From assembly GCA_026982705.1 (NCBI GenBank), contig JALSGP010000047.1:1-36661 (forward strand): a stretch of 36,661 nucleotides of DNA. The letters are read 5' to 3'. Shown one piece after another: positions 14,397-23,775 of the stretch. The number at the start of each line of letters is the position of its first letter. The first letter of the stretch is position 1. Source of the DNA: Alphaproteobacteria bacterium. GTDB lineage: Bacteria; Pseudomonadota; Alphaproteobacteria; Geminicoccales; Geminicoccaceae. Position numbers and translations under genes: made by a program. The notes beneath the pieces are model-generated. The model worked only from the letters and a program-made list of their open reading frames with translations. It was not told where the DNA came from and did not search any database.

Positions 14397-14984
14397 TCAG
14401 GAAGGCGTCGCCACCTCGGCGCCGTTTCCGGACACGGTCTCCGCGACCGGTTCTTCGTAGACGGCGACCTGATTGAGCCCGAACAAGAAATATTGGTGCC
14501 GGTAGCCCTCGGCCTCGATCTCGTGACGGCGCAGATAGTGCTTGTGGTCACGGATGTGCGCGACGTTGACCAGGCGTAGTGCCGCCAGCACCTCCAGCAC
14601 CGGCATGCCGTAGATGCTCGGGGTGGTGAGCACCACGTTGCGCGCCACCCGTCTGAATTCTCGCAGGGCTTGGCGCCAGTTGTGCAGATGCTCCACCACC
14701 GCGAGCGAGATCAGGAGATCTTAGGTCCGATCCGGGAAGGGCAGCGGTCGCTCAAGGTCGCACGGAATGACTTCCTCGTCCACCGGATCGAGATCGCAGC
14801 GATCGACCCGACAGCCGAGCGCAGCCAACTGGCGGGCCATGTGACCCTCACCGGATTCGGCATCGAGCACTCGGATTGCCCCGTGTTCCCCCTTCTCGCG
14901 GGCCAGTCGGTCGACGATGCGCAGGATGTGGCGCGTCGCCGTCTGCTCGCGTGTGCGTCGGGTGAACAGGTCGAACAGGGCCAC
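14397..14984 (-). pseudogene. Class I SAM methyltransferase interrupted by one in-frame stop
   Basis: Two open segments, 14724-14984 and 14397-14720, lie in the same frame and are separated only by a TAA (14721-14723). Read through, they give a ~194-residue Methyltransf_11-like protein. It has a motif I region [15 protein letters not shown] (family consensus closer to LDVGCGEG) and the post-motif PFPDRT-stop-DLLISLAVVEHL. The stop stands where a Phe or Tyr is expected; TAC to TAA would be a single change. The GTG start at 14982-14984 has GGGAG upstream, and the gene begins 27 bases after the rpoD stop on the same strand. GC content is lower than in neighbouring genes (about 58-60% over 14461-14580 by hand count). 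It may be a pseudogene, a sequencing error, or two fragments. Confidence 0.75.
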
Positions 14985-21402: not shown

Positions 21403-21669
21403 TTACCCCGATCCCGGTCCGGCCCGCTTCTCCACCAGCACCACGAAGGTGCCGCCCCGCGCCTCCACCGAGAGCAGGCGATGGCCCGAGGCCTCGGCAT
21501 AGGCCTCCACGTCCTCCGGCGTCTGGGGATCGGTGGCGAGCAGGCAGATGCGGGTTCCGGCCTCCACCAGCATCAGCGCCTGGCGCAGCCGGACGAGGGG
21601 CAGCGGACAGGCGAGTCCGCGCGCGTCCACCAGCACCGCTCCGCCGCCGTCGCGCCCGTCGTCGATCAC
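21403..21669 (-). CDS. TusA-like sulfurtransferase
   Basis: This 88-aa protein of the SirA/TusA family carries the active-site motif in VDARGLACPLPLVRLR, with the persulfide cysteine at Cys21 (CPxP). Such proteins relay sulfur for tRNA thiolation, molybdopterin synthesis or sulfur oxidation. The GTG at 21667-21669 begins an acidic leader. It lies between the CARF-RelE gene (71 bases upstream) and the monooxygenase (75 bases downstream), all on the minus strand. No tusBCDE or dsr genes are nearby, so its partner is unknown. Confidence 0.85.
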   Translation of the reverse strand: MIDDGRDGGGAVLVDARGLACPLPLVRLRQALMLVEAGTRICLLATDPQTPEDVEAYAEASGHRLLSVEARGGTFVVLVEKRAGPGSG

Positions 21670-21740: not shown

Positions 21741-22835
21741 TCAGTCGTGCCAGTCCACGTCTTCGATCACGAAGGTGTCGTGCTCGAAATGCCCGAAACC
21801 GCGGAGGGCGCCGTGGGTGTGGGTCACATCGAATTCGTGCGTGGCCGGGGGGCGGGGATCACCCGCGAGTGGCTTGAAGTCCAGACCTTGCAGATTCACG
21901 CCCGTCGCCAGACACCGCGCGAGTTGATCCACCCGGCGATTGAACGCATGGAGCGCATTCACGTCGAGCTCCCCGATCCGGTCCGCGAGCCTCCTCGCGT
22001 ACGTGATCCGGCTCCCGAAAGGCGGCGGCTGCAACGCCTTCCGGTAGAGCGTCTCCCGCGCCCGCCGCCACAGCAGCTCGCCCCATTCCGTGAGCATGGC
22101 CCCGCCGTCCACCTCCACCCACAGCGCCTCGGGGAGCCGGCGCCGCCGCGGCTCCGCCGCCGGCACCGGCAATCCCAGGGCGAGGGCCCGGAAGACCTCC
22201 ACCTGTTCGGCAAAGAGCGCGTGGTCGACGGTGATGGGCATGCGCGGGATGGTCACGCAGCGGTGGGTGCGTTCGAAGATGTAGAAGACCTCGCCGCCGC
22301 GGAGCATGGCGTAGGCCTGGAGGAACCCGTTGATGGCCTTGAAGCCGCCGGAGAGGTTGAAGAGAATCTCCGTCCATCCTCCCTCGCCCAGCCACCCGTC
22401 CAGTTCCCGCACCAGCGCCGTCAGACCGTAGCGCAGATCCTCGGGCGAACGGAGCGACAGGCCCCCGGGCGCGATCACCTCCTGCACGCCACATCCCCGC
22501 CGCTCCAGCCATTCCCGCACCAGCCCGGCGGCCTTCCGGCCGAGCCAGGTGTCGGTGGTGACGAGGAGGTGCGTCCCACCCTGCCGCGGGTCCGGAAAGC
22601 GGGCGAGCAGGCCGTTGAGCTCGGCGGAAAGCCGCCGGACATCCTTGGGCCCGGCCGAGGCGAGACGGCTCGTCGCCCGTGCCACGGCCCGGTTCAGACG
22701 GAGCCGCTCCCCCTCGGGAAGGTTCCGGACCTCCTCTTCGGTCCGATTGGCGTGGGCGATCAGCGCCCTCCGATCCTCGTCGCCGCTCGTATTGGTGAGG
22801 ATGCTGGTCCCACAGGTGGTGACGACGATCCGCAC
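21741..22835 (-). CDS. CARF-domain protein (APE2256 family) with RelE/HigB-like C-terminal domain; Cami1-like
   Basis: The 364-aa product starts at a GTG (22833-22835) with GGAGGAGG 6 bases upstream. Residues 1-195 are a CARF fold of the Cas_APE2256 type: a first strand IVVTTCGTSILTN (3-15), a second strand HLLVTTDTW (89-97), and the ligand-loop motif ILFNLSGGFKAINGF (157-171). CARF domains bind cyclic oligoadenylates made by type III CRISPR Cas10. Residues ~232-262 (ALWVEVDGG, LTEWGELLW) look like a small winged-helix segment. Residues ~286-364 look like a RelE/HigB toxin: helices, then FKPLAGD (320-326), THEFDV, LRGFGHFE and a final VIEDVDWHD; HigB toxins have PLKGD and end in a DYH-like motif. 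A CARF-RelE fusion is known as Cami1, a ribosome-dependent mRNA interferase activated by CRISPR signalling. No cas genes, CRISPR array or antitoxin are in this window. CARF is secure; RelE is my reading of motifs. Confidence 0.83.
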   Translation of the reverse strand: MRIVVTTCGTSILTNTSGDEDRRALIAHANRTEEEVRNLPEGERLRLNRAVARATSRLASAGPKDVRRLSAELNGLLARFPDPRQGGTHLLVTTDTWLGRKAAGLVREWLERRGCGVQEVIAPGGLSLRSPEDLRYGLTALVRELDGWLGEGGWTEILFNLSGGFKAINGFLQAYAMLRGGEVFYIFERTHRCVTIPRMPITVDHALFAEQVEVFRALALGLPVPAAEPRRRRLPEALWVEVDGGAMLTEWGELLWRRARETLYRKALQPPPFGSRITYARRLADRIGELDVNALHAFNRRVDQLARCLATGVNLQGLDFKPLAGDPRPPATHEFDVTHTHGALRGFGHFEHDTFVIEDVDWHD

Positions 22836-22974: not shown

Positions 22975-23775
22975 GTGCGGCGGGTGGTGGCGAGCTGGAA
23001 CGTCAATTCCGTCAAGGCCCACCTCGAGGTGGTGCGCGACTGGCTCGCCCGGGTGCGGCCCGACGTGCTGCTGCTGCAGGAGCTCAAGTGCCCCGAGGAG
23101 GCCTTTCCCCACGAGGCCTTCGCCGAACTCGGCTATCACGCCGCCGTGCGCGGCCAGCGCGGCTTCAACGGCGTCGCCATCCTCGCCGTCGAGCCGGTGG
23201 AAGTGCTGTACCGGGACCTGCCGGGCGATGCGACGGACCGTCAGGCCCGCTACATCGAGGGCCGCACCTGCGGGCTCAGGGTGGCCTCCGTCTACGCACC
23301 CAACGGCAATCCGCCGGAGTCCGACCGCTTCGCCTACAAGCTCGCCTGGCTCGCGCGCATGCGCGCGCACGCGACGGCGCTGCTGGAGGGCGACGAGCCG
23401 CTGGTGCTGGGCGGCGACTGGAACGTGATCCCGGAGGAGGTGGACTGTCACGATCCGGAGGCGTGGGCGGAGGACGCCCTGTTCCGGCCGGAGAGCCGCG
23501 CCGCCTTCCGCGCGCTCCTCCATCTCGGGCTCTACGACGCCTTCCGCGTCCGCCACCCGGAGGACCGGGCCTACACCTTCTGGGACTATCAGGGGCGCGC
23601 CTTCCAGCTCGACCACGGCATCCGCATCGACCACCTGCTGCTGGGGCCGCTCGCCGTCGACCGGCTGGAGGAGGCGTGGATCGACCGCGAGCCGCGCGGG
23701 CGCCGCAACACCTCCGACCACACGCCCGTCCTCGCCCGTCTCGACGTGCCCGGGCGGTGGGAGTGGGAGCCTTGA
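22975..23775 (+). CDS. xthA: Exodeoxyribonuclease III / AP endonuclease
   Basis: This 266-aa endonuclease/exonuclease/phosphatase-fold enzyme repairs abasic sites and blocked 3' ends. It shows ASWNVNSV with Asn9, LLLQELKCP with Glu36, YAPNGNP, GGDWNVIPEEVD and the C-terminal IDHLLL plus NTSDHTPV. The start is GTG at 22975 with GGAGG upstream. It is divergent from the CARF-RelE gene and overlaps a DUF1330-like gene by TTGA. A 22-base perfectly alternating purine-pyrimidine tract lies inside it at 23352-23373. Confidence 0.95.
   Translation: MRRVVASWNVNSVKAHLEVVRDWLARVRPDVLLLQELKCPEEAFPHEAFAELGYHAAVRGQRGFNGVAILAVEPVEVLYRDLPGDATDRQARYIEGRTCGLRVASVYAPNGNPPESDRFAYKLAWLARMRAHATALLEGDEPLVLGGDWNVIPEEVDCHDPEAWAEDALFRPESRAAFRALLHLGLYDAFRVRHPEDRAYTFWDYQGRAFQLDHGIRIDHLLLGPLAVDRLEEAWIDREPRGRRNTSDHTPVLARLDVPGRWEWEP

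Follow-up and report, generated by a model that had tools for sequence, protein, structure and literature searches.

A Cami1-type CARF-RelE gene located apart from the resident type III-A CRISPR locus in a genome of the Geminicoccaceae

A gene encoding a CARF sensor fused to a RelE-family domain was identified at positions 21741-22835 (minus strand) of the window, the stretch of 36,661 nucleotides that was analyzed and that forms one whole contig (C47) of a 2.66-Mb genome in 48 contigs. A second contig of the same genome (C18) carries a complete type III-A locus with an apparently active Cas10. The encoded protein is most likely an effector of the Cami1/Sll7062 type which acts in trans for this resident system, as an unlinked, self-limiting translation blocker activated by cA4. 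Published work already describes the CARF-RelE family, including its domain architecture and its connection with type III systems; the unlinked placement as a single gene is less documented. The window offers a clear example of a type III effector encoded far from the cas genes, with the empty site visible in a genome of the same genus.

The CARF-RelE gene and its product

The ORF is intact and codes for 364 amino acids, with a GTG start at 22835 and the stop codon at 21743-21741. Its coordinates had been given correctly in the earlier note, which omitted the strand. The GTG is favored over two longer in-frame starts (22877 and 23087) by the N-terminus typical of the family, M-x-x-I-L-S-T-C-G-T-S. 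The plus-strand reading of 21741-22835 is open as well, yet it was rejected, as all profile matches lie on the minus strand.

Residues 1-200 (22236-22835, minus strand) form a CARF7 (Cas_APE2256) sensor domain. The Pfam model Cas_APE2256 matches residues 67-198 (1.7e-23), and the PADLOC profile PDLC01934 (CARF7--CARF_RelE) covers residues 2-363 (1.7e-85). The fold of this part matches Sis0811 and SSO1393 as well as Cami1, in agreement with the APE2256-type sensor that had been proposed from the sequence. It is followed by a linker domain (residues 201-272; 22020-22235, minus strand) of helices, a hairpin and a long helix in the secondary structure of the model, which aligns within the Cami1 chain in the full-length alignment with 8phj.

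The C-terminal part (residues 273-364; 21744-22019, minus strand) was matched by none of the Pfam and NCBIfam RelE/HigB models at the sequence level and was therefore examined by structure. An AlphaFold model of the protein, built with 64 family members, reached a mean pLDDT of 94 and a pTM of 0.86. In this model residues 274-364, taken by themselves, can be aligned with YafQ, a RelE-family toxin of E. coli (4mmj; Z 10.4, rmsd 2.8, 84 residues). The predicted RelE fold rests on the PADLOC profile, which extends to residue 363, and on the structure model, and the RelE-like C-terminus suggested earlier is upheld on these grounds.

Among PDB structures, the model as a whole best matches Cami1 with bound cA4 on the 70S ribosome (8phj; Foldseek E 3.3e-16), which aligns with Z 20.9 and rmsd 5.2 over 323 residues. 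The Cami1 structures 8phb and 8phj reportedly come from Mogila et al. (2023). Like the window protein, Cami1 joins a CARF sensor to a RelE-family domain, and the two folds match along their length; a fusion of the Cami1 kind, as the earlier note had recognized, agrees with both profile and model. However, the identity in the structural alignment is about 20%, and similarity between the sequences was detected up to the linker only. Cami1 has 406 amino acids, of which the last ~60 fall outside the alignment. While the window protein stops at the end of the RelE fold, the Cami1 chain runs on beyond it (residues 345-406), and docking to the ribosome may therefore differ.

Eighteen columns are invariant among the 64 homologues, which come from many phyla. 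They include S11, E72, K166 and R345, and all four are present in the window protein. S11 (CGTS motif; codon 22803-22805, minus strand) is a putative ring-nuclease or ligand residue, E72 (SAELNG motif; 22620-22622, minus strand) a putative ring-nuclease residue and K166 (GGFK motif; 22338-22340, minus strand) a putative cOA-binding lysine. Matched by motif, they correspond to S12, E70 and K167 of Sll7062 (PMC9676260). R345 (21801-21803, minus strand) is the sole invariant residue of the RelE domain (64/64).

Besides R345 this domain keeps K321, H333 and E334. Three residues common in relatives are replaced, namely W338 by T, D340 by T and K/R344 by L, and in the family tree no branch is longer than that of the window protein (1.9); the RNase activity could therefore be weakened. 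K321, R345 and H363 presumably fall at the catalytic positions of RelE and YafQ, an assignment made by hand alignment and taken as a lead only.

The resident type III-A system and the proposed mode of action

The cas10 gene of the genome was found on contig C18 (117.8 bits). Its product contains an HD motif and an intact GGDD motif at residue 639. The III-A locus is complete, with Cas6, Cas10, Csm2, Csm3, Csm4, Csm5, a CARF5 protein, a Csx1 fused to Csx20, and Cas1, which by eye is preceded by a Cas2-like ORF. Beyond the cas genes lies a CRISPR array in which a 35-nt repeat occurs in 69 exact copies. By arithmetic on the contig coordinates, the CARF-RelE gene lies at least ~28 kb from Cas10 even if the two contigs adjoin. 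The earlier note had reported neither Cas10 nor an antitoxin nearby. This holds for the window but, as regards Cas10, not for the genome; the gene was missed because the window is a single 36.7-kb contig. Of the origins considered there, inheritance after loss of the type III system is refuted for this genome by the Cas10 on C18, and service to a type III system elsewhere is favored by the intact GGDD and the full locus.

The Csx1 of the locus (CARF2-HEPN; L011:15810-17444) carries the Csx20 ring-nuclease domain at residues 427-540. Ring nucleases of the Csx20 family are specific for cA4 (PMC12830947), and the presence of Csx20 in the local effector makes cA4 the probable messenger of the resident system.

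Some further features were noted in this genome. The fusion of Csx1 to Csx20 is in itself a self-limiting effector design. At L011:17593-19900 the Cas2-like ORF and Cas1 are followed in tandem by a partial Cas1-like ORF (261 aa; PF01867, 1.5e-7) and a second Cas2-like ORF. A protein of 309 amino acids (L011:6495-7424, minus strand) adjoins the CARF5 gene and contains a nuclease-like WIEAKSGHDF motif, with no Pfam or PADLOC match. A second match to the Cas10 model (C30, 24 bits) was not counted as Cas10, since it falls below the curated cut-off; its ORF (L013:9693-10802) sits among housekeeping-type genes.

In the proposed course of events, a Csm complex that meets target RNA would cause the Cas10 cyclase to produce cyclic oligoadenylate, probably cA4. 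Binding of cA4 by a CARF dimer would release the RelE domain, and the freed domain would cleave mRNA at the ribosome and halt translation. The same CARF site would slowly cleave the ring and so end the response, acting as a built-in ring-nuclease timer, and for this reason no antitoxin would be needed. Hallmarks of Cami1 proper are activation by cA4, cleavage of mRNA in the ribosomal A site and capture by the ribosomal stalk. Cami1 is described as a cA4-gated, ribosome-dependent mRNA interferase (PMC11229360), and an intrinsic ring-nuclease activity is reported for it (PMC12830947).

The best annotated plasmid match is a gene of Synechocystis pSYSA which ends a type III operon beside csx2 (32.6% identity over 99%), and by this operon position it was identified as sll7062. 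Sll7062 (SyCsm6, Synechocystis PCC 6803) shares the CARF7-RelE architecture and the S/E/K ring-nuclease motifs with the window protein. Its gene is the last one of a type III-D operon, whereas the window gene is unlinked, belongs to a III-A genome and encodes a more divergent RelE domain. As a purified protein, Sll7062 acts as a ring nuclease on cOA, cleaving cA4 and cA6, and its K167A variant has lost the cleavage of cA4 (PMC9676260).

In a ribosome-free assay Sll7062 cut cA4 and left RNA uncut (PMC9676260). This result, together with the retained S11, E72 and K166, the long branch and the missing W338, D340 and K/R344, would suit a protein that is mainly a ring nuclease, i.e. an off-switch or sponge for cA4 with a weak or dead, fast-evolving RelE domain. 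Such a role is the main alternative to the preferred reading. It is unlikely, though, since a RelE enzyme would escape an assay that contains no ribosomes, the RelE fold is confidently predicted with R345, H333, E334 and K321 in place, and the resident locus already has a ring nuclease in Csx20.

Chromosomal placement and association with type III systems

The CARF-RelE gene is located exactly between tusA downstream (21403-21669, minus strand; Pfam TusA, 4.1e-20) and a divergently transcribed exonuclease III/xthA-type gene upstream (22975-23775, plus strand; Pfam Exo_endo_phos, 2.4e-27). Both flanks are syntenic with L142, where the xthA product shows 79% identity, and neither a cas gene nor an antitoxin gene is found beside the CARF-RelE gene. 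In G002, a genome of the same genus, tusA directly adjoins xthA at a distance of 129 bp, with DNA similarity on both sides. A single gene has therefore been gained or lost at this site. A gain is the simplest reading, and a loss in G002 is the alternative that would also fit. G001 and G003 lack the CARF-RelE gene too; in G001 xthA has other neighbors, and no xthA was found in G003.

G002 shows matches to the Cas10 model above the cut-off on three contigs (C41, C90 and C102, with 100, 42 and 33 bits), of which the two weaker ones may be GGDEF proteins or partial. Despite these matches it has no CARF_RelE of the family of the window protein. Elsewhere in the window, two short ORFs of low GC content (14397-14984, minus strand; no Pfam match) appear by eye to be pieces of a broken methyltransferase.

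The window protein is 37-39% identical to homologues from other phyla and 38-40% to those of its own family, whereas xthA reaches 65-69% across the family. In the tree it sits on a very long branch and groups, with weak support, with L071 from the same family. Both GC and GC3 of its gene are lower than in almost every other intact gene of the window. A phage origin was rejected, as none of 50,697 phage records gave a match to the CARF-RelE protein.

The occurrence of the family was compared with that of Cas10. Among 31 genomes of the order, 9 contain a CARF_RelE (one of them as a fragment). Cas10 (>60 bits) was found in 8 of these 9 carriers and in 5 of the 22 non-carriers (Fisher p 0.001, kinship ignored). 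In the ninth carrier (G029) a fragment of a RAMP gene was found, and the lack of Cas10 there may thus be a gap of the assembly. Worldwide, 40 of 49 genomes with a homologue have Cas10 (E <1e-7), and RAMP genes occur in 6 of the 9 that lack it, against a Cas10 background of 33 in 397 genomes sampled from the phylum of the window, where GGDEF proteins may account for some matches of 34-38 bits. The comparison serves as an indication only, as the first set spans many phyla and the background one phylum, and kinship was ignored.

The usual placement of such genes is in or beside a type III locus, whereas the window gene lies on a different contig. Where at least 8 kb were available on either side, Cas10 occurs within the stretch for 6 of 14 homologues, counted by mapping Pfam matches onto the stretches, which misses matches just beyond a stretch. 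Near or just outside these limits, Cas10 is also present at L074 and L102 (by a home-made profile, which undercounts) and at L085 (by coordinates). Linkage to Cas10 therefore does not define the CARF7-RelE family. The homologues of the sister genus g6 of the Geminicoccaceae (e.g., KatS3mg117, L098) are likewise unlinked to cas genes. They occupy a conserved chromosomal place, and 5 of 6 of their genomes have Cas10. This place differs from that of the window gene, being beside transporter and metabolic genes, and the identity to the window protein is 38-40%.

The unlinked position, the single-gene difference to G002 between tusA and xthA, the low GC and GC3 and an identity of 38-40% to family-level relatives, compared with 65-79% for xthA, might also indicate a stray effector gene which arrived by horizontal transfer and is uncoupled from the resident system. 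This is quite improbable, because the ORF is intact with every invariant residue present, carriers nearly always have a type III system, and a diffusible messenger requires no linkage. For the preferred reading of an effector in trans, the position away from the cas operon carries a caveat, as co-regulation with the operon is putative.

Published surveys of type III effectors stay close to the loci, in one case within 6 kb (PMC12409355), and 133 cyclase-positive loci without an effector were reported (PMC11229360). In-trans signaling between loci has been suggested in published surveys as a reason for such effector-less loci. Unlinked effectors like the one described here give one testable answer to the question of where some of the missing effectors are. 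A bolder and rather doubtful proposal is that mobile single-gene CARF-RelE modules plug into resident type III systems from anywhere and are missed by cas10-proximal surveys, and that in the present case a module with a drifted RelE domain would mainly end the signal.

A divergent branch in genomes without detected type III genes

In the sample of the phylum, Cas10 was found in three of seven CARF-RelE carriers. The other four belong to a divergent branch (L166:9371-10486 and L167:10052-11167, both plus strand; L169:9410-10399, minus strand; and L168 of G122), and neither Cas10 nor RAMP genes were detected in their genomes, one of which is a single 4.7-Mb contig. In the three aligned members S11, K166 and the RelE arginine are lost together. 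The CGTS motif is changed to CGRE or CGRQ, SAELNG to C/S-PEL, and GGFK to GGSR or GGSH. The joint loss is the pattern expected if these three residues serve type III signaling. Judged from its motifs, the branch could have decayed, or it could have been adapted to a different signal.

Due to this branch a change of ligand is conceivable within the family, and the CARF domain of the window protein might accordingly sense a messenger other than the cyclic oligoadenylate of type III systems, as the earlier note had considered. For the window protein this is very improbable, because S11, E72 and K166 are kept in their canonical motifs, the protein falls outside the divergent branch in the tree, and the Cas10 of its genome looks active. 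Finally, a toxin-antitoxin pair of the classical RelE/HigB kind whose toxin merely has an unusual N-terminus can practically be dismissed: residues 274-364 do share the fold of YafQ and the RelE toxins, but these stand alone with an antitoxin, whereas the window protein is fused to a CARF domain and its gene is flanked by tusA and xthA.
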